IMG/VR virus record: IMGVR_UViG_3300028920_002953
Coordinates: 1 to 64,000 of that record
DNA: 64,000 bases
Reading direction: 5' to 3' (one strand)
Source of the DNA: a virus
The notes beneath the pieces were generated by a model, which worked only from the letters and a program-made list of their open reading frames with translations, did no database searches and was not told where the DNA came from. A program made the translations under genes and the position numbers. Shown here one piece after another: positions 8,820 through 62,780 of the stretch (the first letter of the stretch is position 1; every line of letters begins with the position of its first letter).

Positions 8820-8820
8820 C

Positions 8821-9105: not shown

Positions 9106-9114
9106 GGAGATAAG

Positions 9115-9831
9115 ATGAGTACCTATGCTTCCAACAGTGAAATCAAGTTTGACACTGGCCGAGCGATCACCACCTTATTAGATGAGGAACTCTCTGCAAA
9201 CGAGCAGCAAAACGTGATCCGTGTTGCTCGTGAAAGGGCATACAATCGCATCAATGCCAAGTTGCGTGGCAAGACCGCTATTCCGGCATTTCACGTACCG
9301 TCTTTAAAACAAGTGGAGATTGATTATGTTATCTCCGATCTTGTAACTGGTGCATATACTTTGGAGGTTGTCAACCAAAGTGAATGGGCTGAAAAGTACA
9401 TGGAACGTGCCGATGAGGTTTTAGCCACGTTGGTATTTGAAGCAAGTGCCGAAAGGCCGGTTGCTGACCGTTCTAACGTGGGTGATGGCACACTCAAAAT
9501 CATTGATGTTTTCTCAGAGTATGCCAAAACAGAAGTTTGGACATTTACTGCAACAAGCTCCACTGAATTTAGCGTGTATGGCAGTGTGTCCGGCGCATTC
9601 CCTGCCTTGACCGTAGACACTGAATATCCTGAGAGGGAATGGGCAACTGGTATAGGCAATGATTATGGACTGCAGCTACAAGCTTACCCTGCACCCGGAA
9701 GAACACCGTTTAGCTGTAAGATCAACGAAGGGAATACGCCTTTTGAAAAGTACGATGTCTTTACGGTGAAAATCTTTGCCTCTGAGGAAAGTCGCCAAAA
9801 CATCAGTAGTGGAAAACTTGTGAGGGCATAA
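9115..9831 (+). CDS. Putative head-tail connector / head-completion protein (238 aa)
   Basis: Residues 1-115 are helical and resemble gp6/DUF1320-type adaptors: MSTYASNSEIKFDTGRAITT followed by helices with ARERAYNRINAKLRG and a conserved-looking VIDYVISDL-type segment. Residues ~120-238 add a beta domain (TEVWTFTATSSTEFSVYG). It starts the morphogenesis cassette and ends in a TAATG overlap with the virion morphogenesis gene, the usual order in siphophages. The adaptor role is inferred from order and helical pattern. Confidence 0.55.
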   Translation: MSTYASNSEIKFDTGRAITTLLDEELSANEQQNVIRVARERAYNRINAKLRGKTAIPAFHVPSLKQVEIDYVISDLVTGAYTLEVVNQSEWAEKYMERADEVLATLVFEASAERPVADRSNVGDGTLKIIDVFSEYAKTEVWTFTATSSTEFSVYGSVSGAFPALTVDTEYPEREWATGIGNDYGLQLQAYPAPGRTPFSCKINEGNTPFEKYDVFTVKIFASEESRQNISSGKLVRA

Positions 9832-33700: not shown

Positions 33701-36700
33701 AGATTGCAATCTATCCTCCTACCTCTGATGATGATGTACTTCTCGATGTTTTTAGTGGGGCTTCAACTCGATGCGGTAGAGGACAGTTTGACGGTATTGA
33801 CGGTGGTGGGTGGAAGTATTTAGCTTTTGAAACCGATGGGGGAAATGGAGACACTCTTACTCCTTATGAAGATGGTGTAGCTGGAACAACAGATACATTA
33901 ACAGCCGATGTTACTCTTACATCCATAGCTATGTATGTGGCGAGAAGAGGCTGGGACCCATCCGGTTACTTCAAAGGTAAGATAAGTGAACTCAGAGTAT
34001 CCAGAGATGTCAAAGGTTCTGCTTGGATAAAGGCAACTGCTGCTGTATACGATGGAACACTTTTAGAATTTGATGCCAGTAGTTCATCCTCTTCCTCCTC
34101 TCGTTCATCTTCGTCAAGTAGCATATCATCCTCATCCAGAAGTAGTAGTTCATCTGTGGGCGTACCAAGCTCAAGAGAAGCATGGTATTCAATAGACTCC
34201 ACCAAGATCGATGCAGAACTAACTGACTTTCCAGTAGGTATAAAGATAGAAGAATCAAGTTTCTTCTCTACTCTTGGGGAAGATTCATGGCAGTATCTTA
34301 GGGCGACAGTAGATGGAGAGGAATGTTTTGTAGAAGTAGATGTATGGGACCCTGCTAATGACGAAGCGGTAATATGGGTCAAAGTTCCAACGGTTTCTAA
34401 CACTGCCGATACGGTCGTCAAGATTGAAACAATTACCCGGCGAAATGATGATATTGAAATCACGTCGCTGGAAGTATTTGACGACTTCACCGGGAATGAC
34501 GGTGACGAACCGAACGCGACTCTTTGGACAAAAACGGTTTCGGGCGGCGACGATTGTCTTTCGATTCAAAGCAATGCCTTGAATTTTGATTCGCCCGGAA
34601 ATTCGTCGGAACATAATAATTATGTCACTTCTAACTTTGAAATCGAAGGCGATTTCGACGTTGAGGTTTCATTTGAAATCACGACCGAAAACGATGGGAC
34701 AAGTTCTTTGAACTACATGCCGACGATGATGGTGAGAAAATCGTCGGACGACTCAACGTTGGGACAAATCGGCGCGATTCAGACAGCCGATAATGTTAAA
34801 CGGTTACAATGCACCGGAACCGATATATCGACGACCTATATTTCAAGGACGGCGACAAGTGGAAAGTTACGGTTGACGCGGGTTTCGGGCGTTATCACGG
34901 CATATTATGACACGGGTTCTGGATGGGAATGGGACGGAAGTCCATCCGGGCTTGCCTTGGACAACAGCGAGACCGGCGATGTTTATTTCATTATTTATTT
35001 CAGACAAGATCCAAACGGCAAGGTCAACGCTTCCGTCGACAATTTCACGATAAACAGCGCCGATCAAGTTCTCACAGACGGGACCGCCACCGGGTACGTC
35101 GGCAAGACCGTCGACGCGGCGGCACAGAATGTTTGGGATGATGACTTCGTTGGCGTTTGGCACATGTCGCAAGACCCAAGCGGTGGAACCAATGCGATAA
35201 AAGATAGTACGTCGAACGCGAATCATGGGACGCCCGCAGGGTCAATGACGTCCGGGGATTTGGTTGACGGCGATTTCGGCAAGGCAATTGATTTTGACGG
35301 GTCGGACGACGTCATAAATGTTTCGGCCTTGGGGTCCGCGTTTACGGAATGGACGGTTGAAGGCCATGTCAACCCGGACGCGCTTGGAGCCGACAAAACT
35401 ATTCTTACGAATGACTTGCCCGGCTGGAATGATGATGTCTTGATCGGCTTTGACCCCGAATCGGCGGGCATTGATTTAGATAACGATGTTCTTTCGGTTT
35501 CGCACCAAGATTCAACCGACGAAATTCGCACAACGGTCACGAATTCAACTTCTTTGACGATCGGAACCGCCTTTGTTTTCGGGGTCACAGCGACAAGCGC
35601 CGACACCTTGAACATTGTCGTCAACGGCGGGACAGTCGCCTATGATACCAAGGAAGGCGACGCGCTAACATTCGGGAATAATGCGATTCAAATCGGGTAT
35701 AACGCGAACGGCGCGCGAGCTTTCGACGGAAAAATCAGCGAACTAAGGATTTCAAATTCCGCCCGATCCTACGCATGGATCAAAGCCACTGCCTGTGTTA
35801 TGGATGGCACCCTATTAACTTACTCTGCTGATGAACCTTCATTGTCTTCATCCTCTTCGAGTAGTGCCAGTGGGGTATCTGTTTCTTCAAGTAGCAGTTC
35901 AAGCTCTTCTCGTTCATCTTCATTGTCGAGTAGTTCAAGTTCAAGCTCAAGCTCTTATGTACCTGTATATGAATACACAGCTAAATCCTTGGTATTAGAT
36001 ATAGCCACCAACCATGGAGACGCTTCTTACATAGAAGTCAGACAAATAGACTTCTGGTATCAGGGAACTAAGTTAACTCTTGGCCCATCTGATTATACTT
36101 GTTATGGTCAATATTATAGTTATGGACTTGAAACGCGCAATATATACGACACAAGTAGTAGTAAAACCGGCTCTACAAACTATAATGGATGGGTGCGTAC
36201 AGGAGCTTCAAATCAGAGATCAACTGTAGTATTTAACACTCCAATTACGTTTGATGAGATTAGAGTAAACAACGGCCATCATTTTGGGGGCAATACTACC
36301 AGAGGTGTTAATGCGGTAGTAATGACCATATCTTCTGATTCAATAACTTCAACAACATATGAAGCAACGATAACAAATGCTACTGTAATATTTGATGGTA
36401 ATTGGGATGAACATGTTGGTTCAGACGTTGAAGATGAGCAGATTTTATTCGATATAGCTTCATCCAGTTCTTCCTCCTCCTCATCCTCAAGCTCATTCTA
36501 TCTGAGTTCCTCCTCATCGTCAAGCAGTAGTTCCAATTCATCGTCAAACTCATCTTGTGAATCAAGCTCAAGCTCATCCTCAAGTAGCAGCAGCTCCGAA
36601 TCATCAAGCTCCTCTGAAAGTGCGACATTAGACCTTAGCAATGGTCTCCAGGCGTATTATTCATTTGAAAATAATTGTAATGATAGACTTGGCAACTATG

Positions 36701-39700
36701 ACGGTACAGGTAATGGAGTTGACTATTCCACTGGTAAGATTGAACAAGCAGTTTTATTTGATGATACCACGGACTATGTCAGTCTTGGTAATTCAATACT
36801 TAATGATTGGACTCAATTATCAATATCGATGTGGGTTAACTTTGAAACCCTCCCATCTCACGATGAAGATTTAATTAGAAAAGGCGCTCATGATAGCGGA
36901 TCTTCATTTGTATTTTGGAGAGATTATACAGCAACAGAAAACACCATCGCATTTCTTATTAACGACGGTTCGGATTACTCTGGTGTTTATTATTCCGATA
37001 CGAATATATCTACCGGTTGGAATCACATTGTATTTACTTTTGATGGAAACAATGAGTCGAGACTTTTTATCAATGGGTCAGAGGATTCAAACTCCCCATT
37101 TGATATGTCGAGCATTGATTTTATTGAATCAGATGGCAACAGTACAGTTCTCGGTAAAGATACAGATTCTAACAAGACACTTGATGGTAGTATTGATGAA
37201 TTAGGAATATGGAACAGGATACTTACTGCTAATGAAATAGCAACATTATATAACAGTGGTGATGGTATATCCTATTGGGATATACAGGGTTCTTCATCCT
37301 CATCCAGAAGTAGTAGTTCATCGTCTACGGCAAGTGGGGTATCTTCGTCCTCATCGAGTTCTTCCCGATCATCCTCAAGCAGTTCCAGTAGCTCCAAATC
37401 ATCCAGCTCAAGCAGCAGCAGTTCCCGATCATCCTCAAGCAGCAGTAGCTCCGAATCATCCAGCTCAAGCAGCAGTAGCTCCGAATCCTCGTCCTCATCT
37501 TCGGAATCCAGCTCTTCGTCCTCAGAATCGAGTGTCTCCTCTTCAAGCAGTTCTGAGTCGTCCTCAAGCAGCTCAGAATCCAGTTCCAGTTCCTCGAGTA
37601 GTTCAGAATCAAGCTCATCGGAATCTTCAAGCTCACGGAGCTCGTCAAGTAGGTCTTCATCAAGCAGCTCAGCATCAGTATATCTCTATGTGGCAGACAT
37701 CACCTTAGAAGTGGAGCGGAGTATATCTTCAAGCTCAAGGTCGTCAAGTTCCAGTAGCCGATCATCCAGCTCTTCCTCCAGTTCTCGTTCATCCTCTTCG
37801 AGTTCAAGTAAATCTTCATCATCAAGTTCTCGGAGTAGTTCACGATCCAGCAGCTCTTCGAGCCTGTCAAGTTCCAGCCAGAGTGTCTCAAGCTCTTCCT
37901 CTTCTTTTACTGAGTCCAATAAAGTCTATTATACGGTAGATTCCACCAATGTGGATTCTGACTTGACAAACTTTCCTGTAATGATAAAGATTGATTCTGC
38001 TGATACTGACTTCCTTGAAGGTGTTACTTCATCTTCATGGCAGTACTTACACGCCACAGTTGACGGAGAAGAATGCTATGTAGAAGTAGATGTTTGGGAT
38101 ACTATTGCAGAAGAAGCTTTACTTTGGGTCAGGGTGGATGATTTATCATCAACTGTAGACACTGCCATTACTCTGGAAATGCCTGGAACACTTAACACCG
38201 ATAATGTTGGAAAGGCAGGAAGTACTCCTTCTCAAAATGTATGGACCTATAACTATGCCGGTGTTTATCATATGTCAGAAGATCCTTCTGGGACTTCTCC
38301 GCAACTATTAGACTCAACACCAAATGGAGATGATTGCATTTCTTCTGGGTCGATGACTTCCGGTGATTTAGTTGATGGTGATATCGGCAAGGGTATAGAC
38401 TTTGACGGCAATGATGATTACTTCTATAATGATGATCTGAGATTTGCTTTTAATGGATCATTCGAATTCGCATTAAATGTATCCTCTCTGCCATCCAGCG
38501 ATGAGACTATAATGCACTCCGGTGATTCATTCAATGGAACCAGAAGTAGAATGATAAGGCTGACATCCACAGGGAAGATCGCCTTCAGATATTATAGTGT
38601 AAGCTCTTGGCATTCGGCTGTATCCACTACTTCTATTTCAACAACGAGTACTAACATAATATCAATCTCTATCAATGATGGCGATAGTGAGGTGACATTC
38701 AATATAAATGGTACTGAGAATGTAGTCTCTCTGCCTCAAAGCCTCTCCTCTGTTAGCAACTATCCGTTCAAGATTGGCGCTGATAAGAGTATAACAATGG
38801 GCAACTTCTTCACAGGGAGAATGGATGAAGTCAGAGTATGTACGCTTCAAAGGGATAGTGCTTGGCAGAAAGCAACATACCACTCTCTGAATGATAGTCT
38901 TCTGACATTTGCCTCTTCTTCCAGCTCCTCTTCGAGAAGTTCATCTTCAAGCTCTTCTTCTTCGGAGTCTTCCAGCTCATCATCTTCAAGTGCGGTACTA
39001 ACTGAGCAAGCCAAGGCGTGGGATGACACAAATATCGATTCGAATATAGCACTGAGCATCGGCAACAAGAGGGCAACCAAGACTACTTCGGATGGATGGG
39101 TCGCAGTTGTTGGAGATACTGCTGTAACCACCGGTAAGTACTATTGGGAGATAAGTGGATATCAATCTGGAAGTCAAGCACATAGTATTGGAGTTGTTAA
39201 TGAAGACTTCTCTTTCCCATATGGTATTCTCCTTGGAACTGATGGCTCCGGCGATTCATTTGGATTCTCCAGTTTCGATGGAAAGCTAAGAAAGGGCAAC
39301 ACTCAATACTTTTATGATAGTTTCTATCTTGCTTCAAATACTATTGGAGTTGCACTTGATTGTGATACCGGAAAGATTTGGTTTAGCAAACAAGGCACTT
39401 GGTTACAAAGTGGAGATCCAGCTAATGGAACCAATCCTGCCTTTACTCTTTCGGACTTCTCTGAGTTCAGACCGGCTGTAGGATTGTTTAGAAACACCGA
39501 TTATTTAGATGCTCTATTCAACGAAGCGGATATGACATATACTCCTCCATCTGGCTTCGACTATTATGGCGCTGAGATATCATCAAGCTCTTCCTCTTCA
39601 TCATCATCTTCTCGGTCAAGCTCTTCTTCTTCAAGCTCTTCTTCCAGCCGGTCTTCTTCCAGCTCCTCTTCGAGAAGTAGCTCAAGCAGCTCTTCTCGTT

Positions 39701-40887
39701 CATCCTCGTCGAAGTCAAGCTCAAGCCGATCATCGTCAAGCTCTTCTTCAAGCTCTAATCCTGCGGCAGAGTCTACCATAGAGATTCAAAGAGGTACAGT
39801 GAACGTAGGAAACACAGGCACAACTGATTCTCCTACAACCAACTTCGACTCCCTTGACAAAGCGTTTGTACTCTTCAAGAGTAATCGATTCTCATCCGCT
39901 GGGCCAAGTACTCCGAGTGGAACCAACCGTCTTGTTGATGATGTATCTATGGCAGTTAGGTTAACTGCTACAGATACAATAGCTATTGACCGCCTCTCCG
40001 GTGGCGACAATCAAAACTATAGATGCGAGTGGGAGTCTTGGGAGTATACAGGTGGAGCCGGAGGAGCCAATGAGTTCAAAGTAATCGGGAGAGCTTCTGT
40101 AACGCTAACAGCAGGTACAAGAAACACAACGGTATCTTGGACAGGAAGTAATGCATCAAACGCCGATGACTGTATCCCATTCATCACCGGTATAACTAAT
40201 ACACAGGCTACAACCGATAGTAATGGGCTCACTGCTTACGCCAAGCTCACGAGTACTTCTCAGGTGTTTGTAGAAAGAGGAGGAAGCCTTGGAACGACAG
40301 TAGTAGAAATAACAATAGTAGAGTTTACCGGCTCCAACTGGACTGTGGGACACTCCTTTGTATCTCAGACTACTTCAGACAGCGGAACAGCAACGTTGTA
40401 CTCTAACAAGGATGGAGTGACAACAACCCTAACACTAACAAGTATAGATAATGCATTTCTCGCCTCTGTTGGATCAAGAGGAGATACAAATGATGCTGAT
40501 GAAGCTCTCGCTGATAACTGGCCGAATGCTTATCTCAGTAGTACTACTCAAATCAGTTGGGCCTTTGATGCGAACCACGCTGTCACTAACGGCAACGCCC
40601 ATTTCTTCCACGTACTCTACAACGCTGATATAGATGTAACAAGGTACACAGATACACAAAGCCTCGGCGGAGATATGAATGTAAACATTACTACTGCCGG
40701 CCTAACAGATCTGAGTAAGTCAGCGATATTCGGCACGAGGATTACATCCGGTACAGGAACAGCATTTCCAAGAGGAACTATGACATACAAGCTTGATACT
40801 ACCACTCAGGCGGTGCTATGGTGTACAAGATCTGGTAATACAATATCTTCGAGAATAGAGATAATTGATTTGAGCGGGCTGTCTTAA
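30781..40887 (+). CDS. Giant modular adhesin with poly-Ser linkers (3368 aa)
   Basis: Order by eye: N-tag; serine linker; discoidin-like domain (~50-185); linker; several DUF2341 + LamG units (starting near residues ~225, ~555, ~1135 and ~2380), two of them with an inserted beta-sandwich (VWDDFTGDDGD..., VFDDFTGNDGD...); a discoidin-like domain near 1730; a LamG domain near 1950-2160; the longest linkers at ~2170-2300 and ~2315-2375; a SPRY domain (~2745-2925, GVALDCDTGKIWFSKQGTW); a linker; and a ~365-aa C-terminal domain. DUF2341 and LamG are typical of secreted adhesins. No signal peptide is present, as expected of a virion fibre. One unit has foreign-looking codon use. Confidence 0.7.
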   Translation: MAHVKAYRLWFEESSSSSSSKSSSSRSSSSLSSSSSTLPGTKLRFLFDEGSSSFRGYVVLTKILISETIGGSQAMSEANGVASASSEYNDSNPAEYALVDSGMWHSGYDTPITDHWWMFEFNDGIQIDPVWYQIQARGGSYSDNDAPVGWRLQVYNESTSQWDTIDTVSGEPDFGDAEIRSYRVGYNGSSSSSSESSSSKSSSSSSESSSSSSSSAVPPPTSRSIYYTIDSTKVDSDLSNFPVAVKIEESSFFTDLDDQDWEYLKATVGGTECYIEVDKWDPNNDEAVLWIRVPSVSSSEDTVITITTLSSINLSYVGWVGSTPGQTVWSAFTAVYHMSEDPSGTAPQVKDSKGSYNLTSNGTMTDTDLVDDDWNKGIAFDGDNDYLSNSSLQLGTNFTVIAKMNFSSATHTSSRSITHQGHFGTSGQQGVSILISGTSSFVRCTYLRSVWRNVDSTNLISSGDNIIGVGFDSSGSNVHYNINGNAEDVAQPYAYNQTPSQPFHVAARNYTDSQDLFSDGTYDELFIATSVLSDDFIQAMYENLNGSLITHTPPDEKIYYTIDSSKVDSELTDFPVGIEINAETGFVFGRSSTDWRNIKATVEGEECYVEVVDWDTTNQTATIWVKVPTVSSTEDTCITIELLGSRNDEVEVSSQTVWDDFTGDDGDTPDTSLWYQSTTAGTTYLSIQDNKLHFDATSVSTMTQERFQSKFGFTGDFDIQLDVDVIENGVPSTNVNYAPTLSVVAYGWVASISVYRSVSERRIDARSTDVSQDHFTPPSEPYSTKLRLRRVSGVVAAQWYDPVSDRWEWDGVAGAWYSLGTKTGEMQVQITFEQEVNGEVEVDIDNFTINSADGVTAYVGYTGGIAGRQVWLEKYITVHHMAQDPSGGTDCILDSNRTRHLTPYGSMVAGDLVDEGFGKALDFNGTSQYLLASAFSREDTPISIEAYIKAETQGATHGGWIANQRDASTGDQWQIAIYPPTSDDDVLLDVFSGASTRCGRGQFDGIDGGGWKYLAFETDGGNGDTLTPYEDGVAGTTDTLTADVTLTSIAMYVARRGWDPSGYFKGKISELRVSRDVKGSAWIKATAAVYDGTLLEFDASSSSSSSSRSSSSSSISSSSRSSSSSVGVPSSREAWYSIDSTKIDAELTDFPVGIKIEESSFFSTLGEDSWQYLRATVDGEECFVEVDVWDPANDEAVIWVKVPTVSNTADTVVKIETITRRNDDIEITSLEVFDDFTGNDGDEPNATLWTKTVSGGDDCLSIQSNALNFDSPGNSSEHNNYVTSNFEIEGDFDVEVSFEITTENDGTSSLNYMPTMMVRKSSDDSTLGQIGAIQTADNVKRLQCTGTDISTTYISRTATSGKLRLTRVSGVITAYYDTGSGWEWDGSPSGLALDNSETGDVYFIIYFRQDPNGKVNASVDNFTINSADQVLTDGTATGYVGKTVDAAAQNVWDDDFVGVWHMSQDPSGGTNAIKDSTSNANHGTPAGSMTSGDLVDGDFGKAIDFDGSDDVINVSALGSAFTEWTVEGHVNPDALGADKTILTNDLPGWNDDVLIGFDPESAGIDLDNDVLSVSHQDSTDEIRTTVTNSTSLTIGTAFVFGVTATSADTLNIVVNGGTVAYDTKEGDALTFGNNAIQIGYNANGARAFDGKISELRISNSARSYAWIKATACVMDGTLLTYSADEPSLSSSSSSSASGVSVSSSSSSSSSRSSSLSSSSSSSSSSYVPVYEYTAKSLVLDIATNHGDASYIEVRQIDFWYQGTKLTLGPSDYTCYGQYYSYGLETRNIYDTSSSKTGSTNYNGWVRTGASNQRSTVVFNTPITFDEIRVNNGHHFGGNTTRGVNAVVMTISSDSITSTTYEATITNATVIFDGNWDEHVGSDVEDEQILFDIASSSSSSSSSSSSFYLSSSSSSSSSSNSSSNSSCESSSSSSSSSSSSESSSSSESATLDLSNGLQAYYSFENNCNDRLGNYDGTGNGVDYSTGKIEQAVLFDDTTDYVSLGNSILNDWTQLSISMWVNFETLPSHDEDLIRKGAHDSGSSFVFWRDYTATENTIAFLINDGSDYSGVYYSDTNISTGWNHIVFTFDGNNESRLFINGSEDSNSPFDMSSIDFIESDGNSTVLGKDTDSNKTLDGSIDELGIWNRILTANEIATLYNSGDGISYWDIQGSSSSSRSSSSSSTASGVSSSSSSSSRSSSSSSSSSKSSSSSSSSSRSSSSSSSSESSSSSSSSSESSSSSSESSSSSSESSVSSSSSSESSSSSSESSSSSSSSSESSSSESSSSRSSSSRSSSSSSASVYLYVADITLEVERSISSSSRSSSSSSRSSSSSSSSRSSSSSSSKSSSSSSRSSSRSSSSSSLSSSSQSVSSSSSSFTESNKVYYTVDSTNVDSDLTNFPVMIKIDSADTDFLEGVTSSSWQYLHATVDGEECYVEVDVWDTIAEEALLWVRVDDLSSTVDTAITLEMPGTLNTDNVGKAGSTPSQNVWTYNYAGVYHMSEDPSGTSPQLLDSTPNGDDCISSGSMTSGDLVDGDIGKGIDFDGNDDYFYNDDLRFAFNGSFEFALNVSSLPSSDETIMHSGDSFNGTRSRMIRLTSTGKIAFRYYSVSSWHSAVSTTSISTTSTNIISISINDGDSEVTFNINGTENVVSLPQSLSSVSNYPFKIGADKSITMGNFFTGRMDEVRVCTLQRDSAWQKATYHSLNDSLLTFASSSSSSSRSSSSSSSSSESSSSSSSSAVLTEQAKAWDDTNIDSNIALSIGNKRATKTTSDGWVAVVGDTAVTTGKYYWEISGYQSGSQAHSIGVVNEDFSFPYGILLGTDGSGDSFGFSSFDGKLRKGNTQYFYDSFYLASNTIGVALDCDTGKIWFSKQGTWLQSGDPANGTNPAFTLSDFSEFRPAVGLFRNTDYLDALFNEADMTYTPPSGFDYYGAEISSSSSSSSSSSRSSSSSSSSSSSRSSSSSSSRSSSSSSSRSSSSKSSSSRSSSSSSSSSNPAAESTIEIQRGTVNVGNTGTTDSPTTNFDSLDKAFVLFKSNRFSSAGPSTPSGTNRLVDDVSMAVRLTATDTIAIDRLSGGDNQNYRCEWESWEYTGGAGGANEFKVIGRASVTLTAGTRNTTVSWTGSNASNADDCIPFITGITNTQATTDSNGLTAYAKLTSTSQVFVERGGSLGTTVVEITIVEFTGSNWTVGHSFVSQTTSDSGTATLYSNKDGVTTTLTLTSIDNAFLASVGSRGDTNDADEALADNWPNAYLSSTTQISWAFDANHAVTNGNAHFFHVLYNADIDVTRYTDTQSLGGDMNVNITTAGLTDLSKSAIFGTRITSGTGTAFPRGTMTYKLDTTTQAVLWCTRSGNTISSRIEIIDLSGLS
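34400..35790 (+). other. Intragenic segment with distinct GC-rich codon use
   Basis: Inside the 3368-aa gene, the part encoding one DUF2341/beta-sandwich/LamG unit uses many CG-containing codons (TCG, GCG, ACG, GAC, GGG) not favoured on either side. The reading frame continues through it. The protein it encodes is homologous to the unit at about 32,460-34,070, so it looks like a replaced or imported module. The borders are estimated by eye to within tens of bases. Confidence 0.65.
37290..37910 (+). repeat. Longest poly-serine tracts, with VADITL spacer
   Basis: Two tracts (about 37290-37675 and 37725-37910) encode nearly pure Ser with Glu, Arg and Lys punctuation and are separated by YLYVADITLEVER. 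Sub-blocks such as TCCGAATCATCCAGCTC recur, so local duplication contributes, but TCN and AGY codons are mixed throughout. Other tracts of this gene lie near 30821-30890, 31342-31428, 34075-34155, 35845-35955, 36462-36620 and 38913-38993. Confidence 0.85.
39577..39760 (+). repeat. Poly-serine-encoding tract before the C-terminal domain
   Basis: About 60 codons of Ser with Arg and Lys punctuation join the SPRY domain to the final ~365-aa domain of the giant adhesin. Serine codons are again a mix of TCN and AGY. Confidence 0.8.
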
Positions 40888-43560: not shown

Positions 43561-43841
43561 TATATGTTATCCCTTAGTTTGTTAACATACTCTCTGAAAC
43601 GTATTATAAGTTTCTTTTCAACGGGCCTTGTTATTTCCACAACGTAAACAGTGGAGTTGATATCGCTCACAGCATTGCGAAGACCGGTGATAGTACCATC
43701 GTAGATATTCACATGGCCCTTTTTTGCTTCTGAAAAGACACGGTGAGCAATGTCAACTGTAAGATCATTAGAGGAGTACTTTGGTTCCTTGTTGAACAGT
43801 CTTAACCAAAGGGTTTTTATTTTTAGGAAAAGTCTTCGCAT
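43560..43841 (-). CDS. Hypothetical protein (93 aa)
   Basis: It begins with a basic amphipathic helix (MRRLFLKIKTLWLRLFNKE) and continues as a mixed alpha/beta domain (VNIYDGTITGLRNAVSDINS, VYVVEITRPVEKKLII). It overlaps the endonuclease IV gene by 74 nt, so the start may be shorter. The N-terminal helix could bind membrane. Function unknown. Confidence 0.45.
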   Translation of the reverse strand: MRRLFLKIKTLWLRLFNKEPKYSSNDLTVDIAHRVFSEAKKGHVNIYDGTITGLRNAVSDINSTVYVVEITRPVEKKLIIRFREYVNKLRDNI

Positions 43842-44697
43842 ATTTAATGCCTTTTAGAAACTTGAGGTCTTGTATCATAATTGAATGGTCAGTGCGCTCC
43901 ACGATGATTGGCGTTCGTGGCTTTATACGTTTGATAATATCCAGTACAAATTCAACGCCATGCTTACTCTCGATCAATGGTGTAAGACTATGCCGATCCA
44001 AATGGAAACCAAACCGTACATTCCTTGGGATAGCATTCATATGTATACAGTCCATGCTGTGCATATCAATGGACTGCAGGTGTTCACCGGCAGCATAAGC
44101 ATGCTCTGTGTCAAAGCAAATACCAATGTCAATCTTACGATCACGCAAATAGTATTTGATTCTATCAAGCCAAACTGTCGTAGGTGCAGGGTTAGTTTTG
44201 CCTCCAGCATCATTTTCCAACAATAGCCTTAAATTGGGGCATACCTTTGCAAACCGCATGGCATTGCGTTTGATAGCGAGCTTGGTTTGCGTCGGAGTTT
44301 GATGGATACCCTTGCAGTGTACCACTACATCCGTCCTATCTTGATATCGCATCCAGAACTTGTTTAACTCCATGAATCGTTTTGCATGAACTGGTTTGGG
44401 TTTCAAAAGCAAGTGATAGTAAAACGGCATATGCAAGATGATATTGCACTCGCTTGCCAAAGTGGTAATGGTTCTATGGGGTTTGAGATATTTACCCCAT
44501 TTGTTAAAATCAGCGACCACTTGAAAGTTAGTTACATCCTCTTTTATGTAGTCTTCTATTTCACTGATCTTAGGATTGCTGCTAACTGTGACGCCGAGAT
44601 TGAGTTTTCTTTGTTCAGGTTTTTGCTTCTTTTGAACTTTAGTTTTCTTCCGAGCATTGACCGCCATATCCACCCCATATAGGTTTCTCTGGCCCAT
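43768..44697 (-). CDS. nfo: Endonuclease IV-family AP endonuclease (309 aa)
   Basis: Every metal-ligand motif of the endonuclease IV TIM barrel is visible: H89 (IILHMPF), H127 (VVHCKG), E161 (LLENDAGG), D196 and H199 (CFDTEHAYAAG), H219 (CIHMNAI), D234 and H236 (LDRHS) and E267 (IIVERTD). The family cuts DNA 5' of abasic sites using three zinc ions. About 35 basic residues precede the barrel. An internal ATG at 44667 with GGGGTGG upstream is an alternative start. It would act on the abasic sites made by the uracil glycosylase fused to this phage's polymerase. Confidence 0.8.
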   Translation of the reverse strand: MGQRNLYGVDMAVNARKKTKVQKKQKPEQRKLNLGVTVSSNPKISEIEDYIKEDVTNFQVVADFNKWGKYLKPHRTITTLASECNIILHMPFYYHLLLKPKPVHAKRFMELNKFWMRYQDRTDVVVHCKGIHQTPTQTKLAIKRNAMRFAKVCPNLRLLLENDAGGKTNPAPTTVWLDRIKYYLRDRKIDIGICFDTEHAYAAGEHLQSIDMHSMDCIHMNAIPRNVRFGFHLDRHSLTPLIESKHGVEFVLDIIKRIKPRTPIIVERTDHSIMIQDLKFLKGIKYAKTFPKNKNPLVKTVQQGTKVLL

Positions 44698-54211: not shown

Positions 54212-54514
54212 CTACCTCCACATATCTATGTATTGGTGCAAGCTATTCCAAATAATATCCTCACACTCTTTGCTGCAACACCAAGGTTCTATGGGTTGAC
54301 CATGACAGCCACATTGAATCCCACTACAACACATTGCCGGTTCATAGTCTGGCATTTCACATTTGCATGCCATGCAACGCCATCCATACCGACTACTTAT
54401 TTTCAAGTGAAATTCATATGTGAATCTTCCATTACCATTGGTCCATTCAATTGGTGCCATAGGCAAGTCTTCAAATAACCACTCATCATCAAATAGATTA
54501 AGTTGATCATTCAC
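54212..54514 (-). CDS. Cys-rich zinc-binding protein (100 aa)
   Basis: It starts at GTG 54514, overlapping the exonuclease stop. Ten Cys residues are packed into ~40 residues (CMACKCEMPD, MCCSGIQCGCHG, WCCSKECED), implying at least two zinc sites. Function unknown. Confidence 0.5.
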   Translation of the reverse strand: MNDQLNLFDDEWLFEDLPMAPIEWTNGNGRFTYEFHLKISSRYGWRCMACKCEMPDYEPAMCCSGIQCGCHGQPIEPWCCSKECEDIIWNSLHQYIDMWR

Positions 54515-55415
54515 AGAAATGCTCCTTCCACTGGAACAGTTTGTCTCGGTTTACAAATGATCTGAATCCATAGTATTCAAATATGCGAATAAAAGCTTTG
54601 ATGTCATATCGATTGCGACGGCGGATCATACGGGGCATAAGTTCTGGTTTGTATGGTGTGGTAACTATGGGCAAGTTCTTTTGTATGCATTTTTGCCCCT
54701 CGTCACTTTCAATACGGTCATAAATCACGCCTTTGGTTAGTTGGCCTGTCAAATACTTCAAAACCTTACTGGTGGGTTTCTTAGGGTCCGCTGCACCGGT
54801 AATACCTACAACATTGTCACCATCGCAACCACCAATAGCTTTTGCCATTGCCCATTGATCTGCGGTAATGCCGTATTGTTCTTGTAAGTCTTTGTGAGTG
54901 AATAGCTTCTTTTTGCTCGGTGAAAACATATCACAACAATCAAGCACTTGGTACATGTCCTGATCGCTTGTGACCATGATAACATCTTTGCCTTGCTTGT
55001 GAAGACGACGTACCCAATAAGCCAGCAAGTCATCTGCTTCGTAAAGATCACAAAGGTAGTTGTTTTTAAAACCCATAGCAGGGAGAACATCGTCACGCAG
55101 CAAAACAATTTGTTCTAAGAATGATTGTCGGGCCTCCAATTCGGATTCTGACATTTCAGCACGTTTGTCGTGCCGTTTCTTTTTGTAATCCTTGTAATCT
55201 CTTGCTCTGTGAGTATGTTCGCTATCCCAACACATAATAAAATCATTGGATTTGAATCGTCTCGACAAGTCAAGTGTTCGCTGTAAAAACCCATATATTA
55301 CTCCTGTGTCTGTTCCTGCATATGATAAATGTCCAAAGGCATAAAATGCGGCATAGGCAAGTGCCGAACAATCAACTACGATTGATGTTTTTGTTGGGTT
55401 ATTCATAATCACCAT
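54507..55415 (-). CDS. 5'-3' exonuclease, FEN/PIN family (302 aa)
   Basis: It matches the flap-endonuclease family of Pol I N-domains and phage T5 D15 / T4 RNase H: IVVDCSALAYAAFYAFG, FIMCWDSEHTHRARDYKDYK, LCDLYEADDLLAYWVRRL, VIMVTSDQDMYQVLDCCDMF, and a C-terminal helix-hairpin-helix KAIGGCDGDNVVGITG. The acidic residues for two metals are present. It removes RNA primers and flaps, complementing a polymerase with no exonuclease of this kind. ATG 55415 or 55406 both fit. Confidence 0.8.
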   Translation of the reverse strand: MVIMNNPTKTSIVVDCSALAYAAFYAFGHLSYAGTDTGVIYGFLQRTLDLSRRFKSNDFIMCWDSEHTHRARDYKDYKKKRHDKRAEMSESELEARQSFLEQIVLLRDDVLPAMGFKNNYLCDLYEADDLLAYWVRRLHKQGKDVIMVTSDQDMYQVLDCCDMFSPSKKKLFTHKDLQEQYGITADQWAMAKAIGGCDGDNVVGITGAADPKKPTSKVLKYLTGQLTKGVIYDRIESDEGQKCIQKNLPIVTTPYKPELMPRMIRRRNRYDIKAFIRIFEYYGFRSFVNRDKLFQWKEHFCE

Positions 55416-55722
55416 TGCTTTTCATTTCTTCTATCATTTCATCCCATGTTGTAATGTCTTTGCTGTCCCTGTAACAAATGACACCAATACCGACTTCATT
55501 ACCATCGTTCATGTATGAGAAGTCAAGCTGTGAAAAAATATCAATCTGTTCCTTTTTCAATGCTTGGTTCATTACCTTTTGCATCAGCTTGTATCTCGCC
55601 CTAACCATTTGGGTAAACGTAACGGGTGATGGCCCGAGTGATACTGCTACGCGGAACCAGTATGGCCTAAAATCTTGGTTTCCTCTCGCTGACCTCTTTT
55701 TCAAACTCTGCTTCGATTTCAT
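55399..55722 (-). CDS. Hypothetical protein (107 aa)
   Basis: It overlaps the recA end by 56 nt. The N-terminus is basic, the middle (VSLGPSPVTFTQMVRARYKL) is helical, and the end (VGIGVICYRDSKDITTWDEM) is mixed. No known family. It lies between recombinase and exonuclease genes. Confidence 0.45.
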   Translation of the reverse strand: MKSKQSLKKRSARGNQDFRPYWFRVAVSLGPSPVTFTQMVRARYKLMQKVMNQALKKEQIDIFSQLDFSYMNDGNEVGIGVICYRDSKDITTWDEMIEEMKSNGDYE

Positions 55723-56785
55723 ACCATACCCTTGTAGTTTCTTCTATGAGTGCATCTTCCAAGTTATTGTCTTCGATGTATTTGACAAATGATGGTCGGG
55801 TTTTGAATGTTTCACCGTTAAATCGTATAGTCTTTGTACCCCACAAGAAGTCTGCCATCGAGTTAATGTCATCGACTCCATAATCATAAAGGATAGTAAA
55901 TCTGGCCTCTCGAAATGGTTTCGCAACCTTAGACCGTTCAATCTTAGCCTCAGACCGTATCCCATATACTCGCTTGTGTCCCCGCTTTGTTTTGCGTAAT
56001 TTTTCCTGTTCTCTAATCCAAGCAACTTGGTGGGTATAAAAATCGAGAGCCTTGCCTCCGGCCCTGTAGGTCTTTTTGCCAAACATAGCACCAATTTTCG
56101 TCCGAACCTGAGATACAATGAATAGGGTGGCATCGACCTTGTTATTTTCCATTTCGTCGCACGTTCGAGAAAAAAACTTTCCAGCAAACTTTTGTTTTTC
56201 GAGGTTATAGCTACCACTTTCCTCCTTCCCACTTTTCAATGCATCATCGAAACGCTTTTTGTCTGCCGCTGAATACAAAGCATCCCATGAATCAACCACA
56301 TAAAGTAACGCCTCACCCTTGGTTAAATTCTGTACACGGTTGATATAGTCCCTGCCAAATGCCTCAATTTCTTTAATACATATCCACTCAACTGCTTCGA
56401 CGAACTCTTTGCCGTACATGCGCTCTAATGGAAAGTCCATGACGCCTTCGCAGTTGTTATATACAATAGTTATTTTGGTTACCCGAGGAAATATTTTGGA
56501 TTTGATTTTCTTAATCTGTTTCCATACCCAAAAGCAACACTCCAAGGCACATACGGTCTTGCCGCTTGAACCATCGCCAACTACATTATCGACTCTTGCT
56601 CTGGCCCAACCACCGTCTTTGCCTTTACCGCTTAGTGCAAGGTTGAAAGTAGTACACCCCGAATGAATGAATTCAACCTTTTCCCTCTCTTTCTCATTCG
56701 GGGTTCTTTTTCTGCGGCTCGATCTTCTAACACTGTTTGCCATGTTATTTGGCAAGTCAAGTCTTCTGCGTTTAATCTTTCTCAA
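55667..56785 (-). CDS. recA: RecA-like recombinase (372 aa)
   Basis: It starts at TTG 56785 behind a clear AAGGAGAAAAATA site. Residues 70-77 are GDGSSGKT (Walker A). LLYVVDSWDAL is Walker B, and FIVSQVRTKIGAMFGKKTYR followed by AGGKALDFYTHQVAWIR matches the RecA L1/L2 region. Strand-exchange activity is expected. The first ~35 residues are very basic (MRKIKRRRLDLPNN, SVRRSSRRKRTPN), not typical of RecA. A 321-bp non-coding region precedes it. Confidence 0.8.
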   Translation of the reverse strand: MRKIKRRRLDLPNNMANSVRRSSRRKRTPNEKEREKVEFIHSGCTTFNLALSGKGKDGGWARARVDNVVGDGSSGKTVCALECCFWVWKQIKKIKSKIFPRVTKITIVYNNCEGVMDFPLERMYGKEFVEAVEWICIKEIEAFGRDYINRVQNLTKGEALLYVVDSWDALYSAADKKRFDDALKSGKEESGSYNLEKQKFAGKFFSRTCDEMENNKVDATLFIVSQVRTKIGAMFGKKTYRAGGKALDFYTHQVAWIREQEKLRKTKRGHKRVYGIRSEAKIERSKVAKPFREARFTILYDYGVDDINSMADFLWGTKTIRFNGETFKTRPSFVKYIEDNNLEDALIEETTRVWYEIEAEFEKEVSERKPRF

Positions 56786-57106: not shown

Positions 57107-58471
57107 TTAATCTTCTAAACCAAGCTCCTCAATTACCAAGTCTTGCAAATCTTCAAGGTCTTGGGCATCGTCAGGGTCAACATCCAACTTCTGTTTACGA
57201 ATAAACGCTTTCAGCTTGCGCATGTTCATGTCTTCGATGTCTTCAGTTGTGACTTTAGATTTTCCATGCTTACGAGACCGGCGGCGACCACGGCGAGGAC
57301 TTTCTTCCTCATCCTCCTCGTCCTCGTCTTCGTCCTCATCATCTTCATCCTCGTCGTCATCCTCGTCTTCATCCTCGTCGTCGTCATATCTGCCTTTCCG
57401 ACGCCTCTTACCACTGCGCCGGTCGTCATCATCGTCATCATCGTCATCATCGTCGATGTCATCTTCAAACATTTCTTCGATGGCATCTTCAATCTTTTCC
57501 ACGTTGTCGTCAAAGAAACGCTTGCCACCTTTAAGTCTTACCTTGATATCATTGTCAGAGCAGAATGCTCTCAACTCTTTGAGTGTTTCCAATTCAGACA
57601 GTTCGTCGAGCAGTTCATCTTTTTCACTGTCTTCACTGTCATCGTTGTCATCATCGTCAACGTCATCGTCTTCATGCTTGTATTTGCCCTTGGCCTTAGA
57701 ACCCCAATATGCCTTTTCCAATTCCTCGTAAGTGGGGCGTTTTACCAGTTCATCCAAGCAGTGTGCAGCATCAAGGATATCCTCATCGATAATGTAGTCA
57801 CGTTCATCAAACGAATGTCCGACAAACTTAGGAAAGTCTTCTTTGCTTTTGGGTGGTTCAATAGTGAACGAAACTGACTTGCCCTCTTCCTCATCAAAAA
57901 AGACAACGGTTTGCTCTGGCCCACCACGCCGAGAAGGTTTCTTGGACAGTGCCAGTACAAGCTTTTCAAAGTAATGGTAACTCACATCCCACACTTGAAT
58001 GCCTTTTTTCTCCTCGCCTTTGTCATAACAAATGACATTATAAAGGTTGCGTTCCTTGGTGTTCAGTGGGGCAATCTTGGTATCATAGTCGGCACCTTTT
58101 TCAACCAACTGCGCTCTGTGTTCACAAATGGGGCAATCATCCCCCCATGTTCTCGCAGGGCATATATACCAATCATTGTTAGGCCCAACGTTTTTATGAA
58201 TGAAATAATGAAAGGTATAATGTACCTTGGCAGTGCCAATGCGGTTTTTGCCGGTTTCGTAAGGGATGATGTCAATGATATGTGAACCATCTTTAGGACG
58301 CCACACGTTTACATCTACATCAGGCTTGAGAATACTAATGCCACCACCCTCAGCTTGTTTCTGCGCATCTTTCACACGCTGTATCAATTGATCCTTTTGA
58401 TACCGGCGCTTTGACGAACCCCTTTTGCGCTTGCTTACATCGATTCTTCTACCACTACGTTTTCTCACCAT
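57107..58471 (-). CDS. ssb: gp32-like single-stranded DNA-binding protein with long acidic tail (454 aa)
   Basis: Residues ~45-230 match the T4 gp32-type core: DVNVWRPKDGSHIIDIIPYE, ICPARTWGDDCPICEHRAQL with Cys residues for a zinc ion, NLYNVICYDK and VWDVSYHYFEKLVLAL. The C-terminal ~180 residues are Asp/Glu runs enclosing two similar short helical units (LKELRAFCSDNDIKV and MRKLKAFIRKQKLDVD). Acidic tails recruit partner proteins in this family, but this one is much longer than gp32's. The N-terminus is very basic. Its AGAAGGAGG site overlaps the end of the previous gene. Confidence 0.75.
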   Translation of the reverse strand: MVRKRSGRRIDVSKRKRGSSKRRYQKDQLIQRVKDAQKQAEGGGISILKPDVDVNVWRPKDGSHIIDIIPYETGKNRIGTAKVHYTFHYFIHKNVGPNNDWYICPARTWGDDCPICEHRAQLVEKGADYDTKIAPLNTKERNLYNVICYDKGEEKKGIQVWDVSYHYFEKLVLALSKKPSRRGGPEQTVVFFDEEEGKSVSFTIEPPKSKEDFPKFVGHSFDERDYIIDEDILDAAHCLDELVKRPTYEELEKAYWGSKAKGKYKHEDDDVDDDDNDDSEDSEKDELLDELSELETLKELRAFCSDNDIKVRLKGGKRFFDDNVEKIEDAIEEMFEDDIDDDDDDDDDDDRRSGKRRRKGRYDDDEDEDEDDDEDEDDEDEDEDEEDEEESPRRGRRRSRKHGKSKVTTEDIEDMNMRKLKAFIRKQKLDVDPDDAQDLEDLQDLVIEELGLED

Positions 58472-58472
58472 G

Positions 58473-58955
58473 TTACCTCCTTCTGATTTTACGGTTAGCT
58501 TTCTTGACTAATGTTTCACTTTGATTGTCTAATTCTAAATTCCTCCTTTGTTCACCCTTGGGTGTTGAGAAATGCATTTGTATATTGGTAGTCACTAATC
58601 CTTCCAAAGACTTCTTGCGATGTTCCATTGATTTAACTGCACTTTCAAGCAATCGTTTAGTTCTCAAGGCTCTAAGGTATCGTGAATTATCACGTTTGAC
58701 CTTTGGGTGTGTACAGACTGCGGCCTTGACAAGTGCTTCCTTTGGGTTACTTGGTAGATCATACGCTTCGGGGTTTCTTCTAATGCGTATTTCTATTTCT
58801 GATTTGGTAATCTCCACCCTGTCTTTTGCCCTTGCTGCCTTATCAGAAGCAGTTACCTCTGCCTTGGCCCATTTATAAAATAGCTGTGGTTGTTTGACTA
58901 ACTCTTCGTCAAGCCGGTACTTGTTGATATAGCAGTCATCATCAAATTCACTCAT
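58473..58955 (-). CDS. Helical phage protein next to ssb (160 aa)
   Basis: The start (MSEFDDDCYINKYRLDEELV, QPQLFYKWAKAEV) and the middle (EIEIRIRRNPEAYDLPSNPK; LLESAVKSMEHRKKSLEGLV) match a phage protein often found beside ssb and recA. I recall no assigned activity; a recombination-mediator role like UvsY would fit the location. The last codons (KIRRR) double as the next gene's ribosome-binding site. Confidence 0.5.
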   Translation of the reverse strand: MSEFDDDCYINKYRLDEELVKQPQLFYKWAKAEVTASDKAARAKDRVEITKSEIEIRIRRNPEAYDLPSNPKEALVKAAVCTHPKVKRDNSRYLRALRTKRLLESAVKSMEHRKKSLEGLVTTNIQMHFSTPKGEQRRNLELDNQSETLVKKANRKIRRR

Positions 58956-61900
58956 CGTTTGTACCTCTGAAGTGTAAACTACGCAGCAGGGTGCAGAAGC
59001 TTTTCATACCACTCTCGTAGAATACTTTGTTATCTGGATTGTGTAAACTGGCAGCAGGATGCATACAAAAGCAAATCCAAGCATTATGTTTTTCACTCCA
59101 CTGTACCTTGCCACTCATGCTCATAATGCCTGTCTTTTGACCAGTAAAGAAGTACAAACCCGTATTGCCAAAGGCAAGGATCACCTTGGGTTGCACTTTC
59201 TTTAGTTCCTTGTCTAAGTAGGTTCTACCACAAATGCCAATCTGATCGGCGTTGGGTTTTCTGCTATCTTTTGGATAACACTTGGCGACGTTTGTAACGT
59301 GAAAGAAGGGGCGTTCATAACCATACTTAGCTAAGTACTGCCATACTTTTTCACCACTGCGCCCGACAAACCCTTCTCGTTGTTCATCTTCATCTTTGCC
59401 CGGAGCTTCACCAATTATAGCTATGTTATACAACCCCGGACTACTATGCACTGGTGCTAAACATTCTTTACGAAGGGAGCATTTCTTGCAACCTGTCAGG
59501 TTTTTGTTTTTGTATTCAAAGCCAACCTGTTGTATGATTCCTTTTCGTTTGGTGAGCTTTTTCAAAACCCTGCTATCGCCCTCCAATACAGGGTCTAAAT
59601 AGTTCAAGCGCAAGTTGTTATTGAAAAGGGTGTACAGCTTTTGGTATTCGACGGTAGGGTTAGCAGTAATTCTGAATTTGAACATGTCCTTAACTTCTGC
59701 CGTGACATTGAAACGCTCGTGTGATTCATAAGCACCAATCTTGTCGAGCAGTTCACCAAAAGCGCCACCAAACTTTTCAATTTGTTCTTCGGCACCTTTT
59801 TGAAAGAACTTGCGGATGTTATTCTTTTGTGGTTTTGCACTGGCCGCTTGCTCTGCTTTCTTTGGCCCAATGCCATTGGTTTCTATGAAGGGTATTTTCA
59901 ACCTACGATCATCAACTTGCCATTTGGTAGCATGGGACAGCCCAACTTTAGGTAACACAAGGGTTAAGCCTAACCTGTATGCCTCCTCAATAAGCTCGGC
60001 TTTCTTGTCTTGTGCGCCATATGTCAACGATCCACAGATAAACTCAGTAGGGAAATACTTTTTTAACCATGCACACCAATAACCGAGCATGGCATATTCT
60101 ACCGAATGACTACGGTTAAATCCGTACTTACTCCACTTCTCAAGTCCATCCCAAAAATTGATTGCTTCACTGCGGTTGAAATAGCCTGTTTTCTTGCAAC
60201 CCCTAATAAACATGCGCTTGTACTTCTCGAACTCTTTGACGTTGCGTTTCTTGCCTATGATCTTGCGCACCTTGTCGGCAGTGCTATATGGCAAGTCAGC
60301 AATCTCGGAAACCACTTGCATTACCTGTTCTTGGTAGACAAGTAGTCCGTATGTGTCATCTGTGATCTTTTCATAAATCTTATGCATGGGTTCCCAGCTT
60401 GCACCATGTTTGCGCTTTATGTACTCTTGTGTCATACCCGAGTTTGCTGGCCCCGGACGTACCAAGGCAACAGCATCGCTAATGTGCTTGAAAGTACTGA
60501 CACCCATTTCTTTTATTAGGTTGGTCATGGCCCATGTACCAAGCTGAAACACACCGACATTGTTACCGGCATTTATTTCTGCGAGAACATCAGGATCATG
60601 CAAATTGATTTTGGTTAGATCAACAGAAACGTTTTGGTTGGTTTCTGTTAGGCGAACTGTTTCTGCAAGTATAGACAACAGTTTCAAACCCAATGCATCG
60701 AGCTTCATTAAGCCAACATATTCGGTGTCTTCCTTCTCCCAATTAACTAAGGTGGCACCGTCTTTATTGGTAATGAGGTTGCAACGGCCAGAGTGTCCAA
60801 TAGGGTCTTTTGAAACTACTAAAGCAGCAGCATGCTGACTGTAACCACGCACTGTACCCTCAAGCATCTTGGCAAGCTTGATAACTCTTGGGTACTGCGC
60901 AGCAAAGTTAGCACATTCTTCGTATGTGTCTATTGCATCTTGAATGCCGGTATGTTCGTCGTTGTCTTCAACCAGTTTGGTAAACGCATCAGTTTCACGC
61001 CAATGTATGCCAAACACACGACCAACATCTTTAACAACTGCTCTGGCTTTCATGCGGTTGAAAGAAGATACACCGGCAACATTATCTGCTCCATATACAT
61101 CTTCAAGATGCTGCCTTACCAAATGCCGTTTACTATCCTCAAAGTCAATATCGATGTCAGGATAGTCAATACGATCCTCGTTGATAAACCGGCTAAAGAG
61201 TAGATTATGTTCGATTGGATCAACCGTAGTGATTCCAAGCAAATAAGCAATAAGTGAACCACCAACACTGCCACGACCGGGACCAACAAGTATTCCATTT
61301 TCTTTACACCAGTTTATGAGTTCATAGACCATGAGAAAGTAACGTTGAAAGTTCTTGTGTGTGATCAGTTCGTATTCTTCTACCAGTCGTGCATGGTAGA
61401 CTTTATCATCTACAATGCTTTTGTTAAACAATCTTTGAAATGCCATTGTACACAAACGCCACAAGACATCCTTCTCATCACAATGGGCTGGAATACCTCT
61501 GGTTTTGGGCAATTTGATTTTAGGCAAGTCAATGTCACGCTTCGGTATAGTATAGCTGCCACACTTTTCAGCTACTTCAAGGGTGGTAGTTAGATACTCG
61601 GGTTTATACTGGTTATATTCCCTTAACCCTTTTATCATTTCCTTTACTGTTTTCATATGAAAGGTGCGCAAAGAAAATCTAAATCGGTCTTTGTCTGTCC
61701 ACTCAGCTTTGCGTTGTATTGCCAGCAATACCTCTTGAGCTACCGCCTCTGTACGTTTGGGGTAGTGACAGTCGTTGCTTGCATAACATTTGATACCAAA
61801 CCGCTTTGCAAGTCTTATTACTTTGCGATTCCATATGGGTTGTTTTTTGATACGGTGAGGCATAATCTCGGCGTAAAGATCATCCCCCACCGTATCGTAC

Positions 61901-62370
61901 AGGTCTGCAAGAAACTTCATGCCATTAGGTAAGATACGGGCAAACGAGATAAGACAAGCAGTGGAGAAGACTAATCCTTCTGTGTGGGGTAGAAGTGTGG
62001 CGTAGTCTACTCGTGGCTTGTAATAAAAACCGTCCGTATTGGCAAAGGTGAGAAGCTTCGTTAGGTTTTCAAACCCGACCTGATTCTTTACATGAACTTG
62101 AATGTGACCACGTACTTTCGACTTTTCAGCTTTGGTCTTCTCAGCATCCTCCACAATATATAACTCACAACCAAGAATAGGAATAATGTCATGTTTTTTA
62201 CACGCCTTTTGGAACTTGATTAGACCATCAATGTTCGCATGATTTGTTAGGGCAAGATACTTAAAGCCCAATTGCTTTGCTCGTTTGGCATAGTCTTCCC
62301 CTGTACCCATACCATCGAGTTGTGAAAATTCGTTGTGTACATGAAGATGCACAAAATCACTATTGTTCAT
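58948..62370 (-). CDS. dnaE: Family C DNA polymerase (DnaE-like) fused to family 4 uracil-DNA glycosylase (1140 aa)
   Basis: Residues 7-20 (VHLHVHNEFSQLDG) start a PHP domain. GPGRGSVGGS (363-372), PDIDIDF (404-410) and MKLDALGLK (555-563) carry the three catalytic Asp. A helix-hairpin-helix (ETNGIGPKKAEQ) follows near residue 840. The usual OB and tau-binding ends are absent. Instead, residues ~953-1140 (bases 58948-59514) form a family 4 UDG: C961xxC964, GEAPG (987-991), FVGRSG, C1031 and C1047, and HPA near 1104, giving all four Fe-S Cys. It would copy DNA and excise uracil. There is no stop between the parts. Confidence 0.85.
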   Translation of the reverse strand: MNNSDFVHLHVHNEFSQLDGMGTGEDYAKRAKQLGFKYLALTNHANIDGLIKFQKACKKHDIIPILGCELYIVEDAEKTKAEKSKVRGHIQVHVKNQVGFENLTKLLTFANTDGFYYKPRVDYATLLPHTEGLVFSTACLISFARILPNGMKFLADLYDTVGDDLYAEIMPHRIKKQPIWNRKVIRLAKRFGIKCYASNDCHYPKRTEAVAQEVLLAIQRKAEWTDKDRFRFSLRTFHMKTVKEMIKGLREYNQYKPEYLTTTLEVAEKCGSYTIPKRDIDLPKIKLPKTRGIPAHCDEKDVLWRLCTMAFQRLFNKSIVDDKVYHARLVEEYELITHKNFQRYFLMVYELINWCKENGILVGPGRGSVGGSLIAYLLGITTVDPIEHNLLFSRFINEDRIDYPDIDIDFEDSKRHLVRQHLEDVYGADNVAGVSSFNRMKARAVVKDVGRVFGIHWRETDAFTKLVEDNDEHTGIQDAIDTYEECANFAAQYPRVIKLAKMLEGTVRGYSQHAAALVVSKDPIGHSGRCNLITNKDGATLVNWEKEDTEYVGLMKLDALGLKLLSILAETVRLTETNQNVSVDLTKINLHDPDVLAEINAGNNVGVFQLGTWAMTNLIKEMGVSTFKHISDAVALVRPGPANSGMTQEYIKRKHGASWEPMHKIYEKITDDTYGLLVYQEQVMQVVSEIADLPYSTADKVRKIIGKKRNVKEFEKYKRMFIRGCKKTGYFNRSEAINFWDGLEKWSKYGFNRSHSVEYAMLGYWCAWLKKYFPTEFICGSLTYGAQDKKAELIEEAYRLGLTLVLPKVGLSHATKWQVDDRRLKIPFIETNGIGPKKAEQAASAKPQKNNIRKFFQKGAEEQIEKFGGAFGELLDKIGAYESHERFNVTAEVKDMFKFRITANPTVEYQKLYTLFNNNLRLNYLDPVLEGDSRVLKKLTKRKGIIQQVGFEYKNKNLTGCKKCSLRKECLAPVHSSPGLYNIAIIGEAPGKDEDEQREGFVGRSGEKVWQYLAKYGYERPFFHVTNVAKCYPKDSRKPNADQIGICGRTYLDKELKKVQPKVILAFGNTGLYFFTGQKTGIMSMSGKVQWSEKHNAWICFCMHPAASLHNPDNKVFYESGMKSFCTLLRSLHFRGTNDE

Positions 62371-62780
62371 TTATCATCCTTATCTGGAAAACGTTTGCGT
62401 TTTTTTCTTTGTTTAGCAATCTCCTTGTTAATGTCAATGCCCTGTTCTGCAAATTCCCTTTCGGTTCTTTTCTTTTGTAGTATATTAGCCGTAGCATGCG
62501 CACGACGAAGACAAGCGCAACACCACATTACTGTCTCTTGCAGTTTGAACAATGCTCGTGCTTTTTCAATGCGTTGAGCTGGCAGCCTTTCAAGTATGAT
62601 TTGTGCAAGCTCTTGTGTTTTCTCCATGATTTCAACTGCCGCTTCATTGTCGCATTTCTTACCTGTACATCCGTTGATAGGGGTAAACCATAATTCCAGT
62701 ATCTCCTTGTTGGTGAAAGAGTCTATTAAATCCATATTAGCATCATGTTGCATGCAAAAACCTTTACATTCTCTATCCAT
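62367..62780 (-). CDS. Acb2-like (candidate anti-CBASS) protein (137 aa)
   Basis: Residues ~65-98 (ILERLPAQRIEKARALFKLQ, ETVMWCCACLRR) follow the LPxxRExxxAxxxLxEAxMWxxxAIxR pattern of the Acb2/Tad1-type hairpin family, whose members bind cyclic nucleotides and block CBASS or Thoeris signalling. The N-terminal ~50 residues have extra Cys (CKGFC, CTGKKC), and the C-terminus is basic. The call rests on a short motif match by eye. It overlaps the polymerase start by 4 nt. Confidence 0.45.
   Translation of the reverse strand: MDRECKGFCMQHDANMDLIDSFTNKEILELWFTPINGCTGKKCDNEAAVEIMEKTQELAQIILERLPAQRIEKARALFKLQETVMWCCACLRRAHATANILQKKRTEREFAEQGIDINKEIAKQRKKRKRFPDKDDK

Follow-up and report, generated by a model that had tools for sequence, protein, structure and literature searches.

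Architecture of the fusion gene

The window (the whole stretch of DNA analysed here, 64,000 nucleotides) comes from an IMG/VR virus record of 71,847 bases and carries, at positions 58948-62370 of its minus strand, one uninterrupted, ATG-started ORF of 1140 codons, the product of which joins a DnaE-type DNA polymerase to a uracil-DNA glycosylase (UDG) domain. The features of this gene are as follows:

58948..62370, minus strand: DnaE-UDG fusion, 1140 aa (ORF list, Pfam, AlphaFold model and fold search)
61531..62370, minus strand: PHP domain (nuclease-type), aa 1-280 (Pfam, alignment)
59836..61473, minus strand: C-family polymerase core (palm/fingers), aa 300-845, with D405, D407 and D558 (Pfam, alignment)
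within 58948..62370, minus strand: linker, aa ~850-950, between polymerase core and UDG
59794..59823, minus strand: low-confidence short segment, aa 850-859, with IRKFF (aliphatic-x-x-FF) (AlphaFold model, motif count)
58969..59520, minus strand: family-4-type UDG domain, aa 951-1134 (Pfam, NCBIfam, alignment, fold search)

Pfam recognizes PHP at residues 8-143 (7e-33), DNA_pol3_alpha at 303-561 (2e-76), the finger domain at 565-729 (4e-44) and UDG (PF03167) at 982-1115 (2.5e-21, above the superfamily cut-off). The protein has the features of a C-family (DnaE-type) polymerase, namely a Pol3 palm with three catalytic Asp, fingers and a PHP domain, and Asp405, Asp407 and Asp558 are the counterparts in alignment of the E. 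coli DnaE Asp residues. All nine metal-ligand positions known for PHP domains (H10, H12, D19, H44, E69, H89, C139, D200 and H202) are occupied, as would be expected of an active PHP nuclease. Neither the OB (PF01336) nor the C-terminal (PF20914) domain gave a Pfam match in the window protein, with E. coli DnaE as a positive control; judged from its sequence, the polymerase is thus a C-family enzyme outside the DnaE1 subgroup, lacking the OB fold and the tau-binding domain. In an AlphaFold model of the full-length fusion (pLDDT 87.3, pTM 0.72, 32 sequences), residues ~1-925 matched DnaE structures in a fold search (5lew, Z 47.7, rmsd 3.7 A over 841 residues) and residues 951-1133 matched family-4 UDG (1ui1, Z 23.2, rmsd 1.9 A over 181 residues), and residues 866-955, hardly covered by the fold search, are predicted to be mostly helical. 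The initial annotation had described a single ORF with the three DnaE Asp residues and a four-Cys UDG in place of the OB and tau-binding ends, and had suggested a domain search and a structural model as checks; both bear this description out.

The start of the fusion gene is overlapped by a 137-aa ORF (62367-62780, minus strand) with a weak match to the Acb2/Tad1 hairpin model (PF24729, 1.7e-5, 25.3 bits against a cut-off of 27), which could be an anti-CBASS-like protein.

A family-4-type glycosylase with intact active-site residues

Cys961, Cys964, Cys1031 and Cys1047 fit the Fe-S pattern of family 4 (C-x2-C ... C-x15-C) and are unchanged across the aligned relatives. The remaining family-4 motifs are also in place: GEAPG with E988, the stacking residue F1001, the pocket residue N1027 and motif 2, H1104-P1105. 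In the PDB, the domain is matched best by family-4 enzymes. It has the fold, the four Fe-S Cys, the GEAPG motif, the uracil-pocket Asn and the HPA motif in common with the family 4 UDGs of T. thermophilus (1ui0/1ui1), S. tokodaii (4zbx) and T. maritima (1vk2); the latter are standalone enzymes, whereas the window UDG is fused to a polymerase. Since its scores against the NCBIfam family-4 models TIGR00758 and NF040953 lie below the curated cut-offs (90.6 vs 125.3 and 95.1 vs 250 bits, respectively), we call the domain family-4-type and do not claim certified membership. A UdgX-type covalent binder was also considered and rejected: the KRRIH insertion with the covalent His is absent between N1027 and C1047, and the score against the UdgX model, 72.8 bits, is too low for its cut-off of 189.95 bits.

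The same join recurs in related loci

A protein search of IMG/VR yielded at least 12 relatives and a profile search at least 80 loci, repeats among them. After removal of repeats, the window's group comprises at least 24 fused sequences, including the window itself and one contig of a bacterial MAG; a few are partial or split over two ORFs. The survey of DnaE proteins with a C-terminal UDG that the initial annotation had called for therefore found the same join in at least 23 other related loci, which rules out chance and a joining error, whether in assembly or through a frameshift merging two genes. A single genome scan for a bacterial source gave one match, the contig of a Sulfuricurvum MAG, which is possibly phage. 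Among relatives, identity is 59-64% in the UDG compared to 71-78% in the polymerase core; synonymous sites are saturated (dS not computable), so that dN/dS per domain was dropped and only dN and identity were usable.

Two clades that differ in their active sites

Phage DnaE-UDG proteins resolve into two clades in a quick maximum-likelihood tree built on 86 rows of the polymerase part, with SH-aLRT as its only support measure: the window lies within a supported group of 27 rows (SH-aLRT 99; clade I), and the Rhizobium/SSU5-type fusions form a second group of 30 rows (SH-aLRT 100; clade II). Among the fused members of clade I listed, the four Fe-S Cys are kept in 24/24 and N1027 and H1104 in 23/24, and the nine PHP ligands are kept in every complete sequence listed; key residues are gone from one fused member (L032). 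In clade II, found in Rhizobium, Pseudomonas, Stenotrophomonas and SSU5-type phages, the UDG Asn and His are lost from all 28 sequences listed, and the same 28 retain 0-1 of the 9 PHP ligands. The C-terminus of a clade II protein (L044) nevertheless models as a UDG (AlphaFold pLDDT 88.9; 1vk2, Z 22.7, rmsd 2.2 A over 180 residues), which indicates that clade II keeps the UDG fold although its UDG and PHP active sites are lost. Since those residues have disappeared in 28/28 clade II sequences, their retention in the window's clade is more than the fold demands. Cultured members of clade II include Rhizobium phages B1VFA and RHEph10, Pseudomonas phage nickie, Stenotrophomonas phage ANB28, Salmonella phage SSU5 and Klebsiella/Escherichia phage-plasmids, and their polymerases, where annotated at all, are called either DNA polymerase III alpha or simply DNA polymerase.

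Nested within the window's group, at three places of the tree, are five rows that lack the UDG (L024; L028 and L041; L030 and L031); the domain is thus dispensable. A six-frame search of the contigs of these UDG-less relatives, which are fragments, found no UDG elsewhere; loss through a frameshift was rejected on the same search. Intein-like inserts of roughly 340-380 aa lie inside the UDG motifs of two relatives, after GEAPG in L022 and before the Fe-S Cys in L025, positions that are typical of functional active sites. In a third relative, L011, it is the polymerase motif GFNK/SHA that carries such an intein-like insert. At another locus (L062), a UDG-like ORF (5749-6324, plus strand) lies just upstream of a DnaE ORF (6282-9536, plus strand) and overlaps its start; in Moorella phage MTATph1, UDG and DnaE are two separate genes.

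Relation to known polymerase-glycosylase associations

The initial annotation knew of no described DnaE-UDG fusion. This claim of novelty holds only in part: a survey had already noted that, in some Y. pestis and S. enterica strains, a DnaE carries an archaeal-type UDG replacing OB/CTD, in one sentence and a figure label and with no active-site analysis (Timinskas et al., NAR 2013; PMC3919608). The window protein falls under the published definition of DnaEX-UDG, OB/CTD being replaced by a PF03167 domain, and has the same order of PHP, Pol3, HhH region and UDG-type C-terminus, both proteins being without OB and CTD (PMC3919608). The Y. pestis and S. enterica proteins probably correspond to the SSU5-type phage-plasmid clade, in which the UDG and PHP sites are degenerate, whereas those of the window are intact. 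What appears to be new here is the division of phage DnaE-UDG proteins into two clades, one with predicted catalytic sites intact and one in which they are lost; we found no paper in the open-access literature that splits intact from dead DnaE-UDG clades, though older mentions may exist.

Family-A phage polymerases with an N-terminal UDG offer a second parallel. PolA-UDG fusions have been published for PaBG-like phages (PMC7412058), and the family-A polymerase-UDG of Thermus phage phiLo has a solved structure (PDB 9qhs). Like the window protein, these are phage polymerases with a UDG-type domain, but the polymerase family is unrelated, the UDG is at the opposite end and the fusion is independent.

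Neighbouring genes and likely partners

Four further genes of the window may act alongside the fusion:

57107..58471, minus strand: gp32-like single-stranded-DNA-binding protein (SSB) with an acidic tail (Pfam)
55667..56785, minus strand: UvsX/RecA-like recombinase, same replication module (Pfam)
54507..55415, minus strand: 5'-3' exonuclease, possible gap-processing partner (Pfam)
43768..44697, minus strand: endonuclease-IV-like (Nfo-like) AP endonuclease, 309 aa (NCBIfam, alignment)

The replication module around the fusion consists of the gp32-like SSB, the UvsX-like recombinase, the 5'-3' exonuclease and SbcCD-like proteins, and the order of SSB, exonuclease and RecA is common to the Rhizobium, nickie and SSU5 modules. 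Elsewhere in the record lie genes for an RFC/gp44-type clamp loader (phrog_168, 4e-71), a DnaB-like helicase and a clamp-like protein (phrog_223, 5e-5). Searches of the record, which may be incomplete, found no dUTPase (PF00692), no thymidylate synthase (PF00303) and no ATP-type ligase (PF01068). In the Nfo-like protein, 8 of the 9 metal ligands known for Nfo align with E. coli Nfo, and the NCBIfam deoxyribonuclease IV match (3e-10) is below its cut-off. It is likely to be a partner of the fusion, separate from it; a search of 13 related records turned up no Nfo-like gene. Also observed were a very long ORF of 3368 aa (30781-40887, plus strand) and, in the same record past the end of the window, a Radical SAM protein related to PA0069/Rv2578c and scoring below cut-offs (L103:7084-8505, minus strand).

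An RFC/gp44-type clamp loader is present in all seven clade I records G017-G020, G023, G024 and G029; some of them have a DnaN-like clamp and no clamp was seen in the others, so that the clamp type has apparently been swapped under one polymerase. The IRKFF segment could, as a conjecture, be a sliding-clamp-binding peptide. The strict FF pattern is found in 18/30 clade I sequences, 2/28 of clade II and 2/33 others. Against this reading, the segment sits at the position of a helix of the HhH region of bacterial DnaE, where similar letters occur, and relatives that have a DnaN-like clamp show similar motifs; for these two reasons we keep it as conjecture only.

A proposed role in repair at the replication fork

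From the conserved fusion, its intact active-site residues, the missing OB and CTD and the accompanying genes, we propose, with a probability of roughly 0.6, that this phage replicase has a tethered, catalytically competent family-4-type UDG that performs fork-linked base excision repair. The polymerase, with its OB fold and tau-binding C-terminus exchanged for the UDG, would be the phage's own replicase and would copy phage DNA together with the phage-encoded clamp and RFC/gp44-type clamp loader. The tethered glycosylase would take out uracil near the fork, arising from cytosine deamination or dUMP misincorporation, which would be most useful in freshly synthesized duplex. The abasic site would then be cut by the endonuclease-IV-like protein and the gap refilled by the polymerase together with the 5'-3' exonuclease. 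Glycosylase activity, coupling to the fork, this order of steps and any clamp contact are thus predicted parts of the model. Coupling to the fork could also do harm, since excision of uracil from single-stranded template leaves lesions that have no intact partner strand. Support for repair comes chiefly from the retention of catalytic residues here and their complete loss in clade II. A fuller version, in which one chain unites three intact sites (polymerase, PHP nuclease and UDG) and couples uracil removal to synthesis, the module being dead or lost elsewhere, is put forward tentatively, at something short of even odds.

The poxvirus D4 glycosylase is a separate protein, of another UDG family and associated with another polymerase family than here. 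It is likewise tied to a viral replicase, and has been described as a processivity factor (PMC10253040). By analogy, the UDG domain of the fusion could be mainly structural or DNA-binding, with any catalysis secondary. Clade II retains the fold with the active site lost in 28/28 listed, so a UDG fold can evidently serve a polymerase without catalysis, and a D4-like structural role is probable for that clade. For the same reason, the fold alone is no evidence for the uracil scanning or proofreading suggested in the initial annotation. In the window's clade, however, 23-24 of 24 sequences retain the catalytic and Fe-S residues, which a structural role alone would not need; we therefore consider such a role unlikely for the window protein, and scanning or proofreading of uracil at the fork plausible for its clade.

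The OB/CTD part of bacterial DnaE lies near the template. A UDG occupying its place might bind template uracil and stall the polymerase, as in archaeal family B polymerases, which use a different pocket, and the phage's UvsX-like recombinase could help stalled forks. Conservation of catalytic as well as uracil-pocket residues goes beyond what binding alone needs, and makes this reading improbable. That neighbouring genes were simply joined, with independent and uncoupled activities, would agree with the separate ORFs of L062 and MTATph1 and with the loss of the UDG in three lineages, but has little to recommend it given that UDGs are attached to unrelated phage replicases (C-terminally to DnaE, N-terminally to PolA), at least two separate fusions that suggest a benefit.

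If the glycosylase of the fork-linked repair model works, one polypeptide would both copy DNA and strip it of uracil, a coupling otherwise achieved via separate proteins. With relatives that have an intact, a dead or a missing glycosylase on the same polymerase, the question of why replicases recruit a UDG becomes testable, and many phage proteins annotated as 'DNA polymerase III alpha' conceal a glycosylase-type domain.
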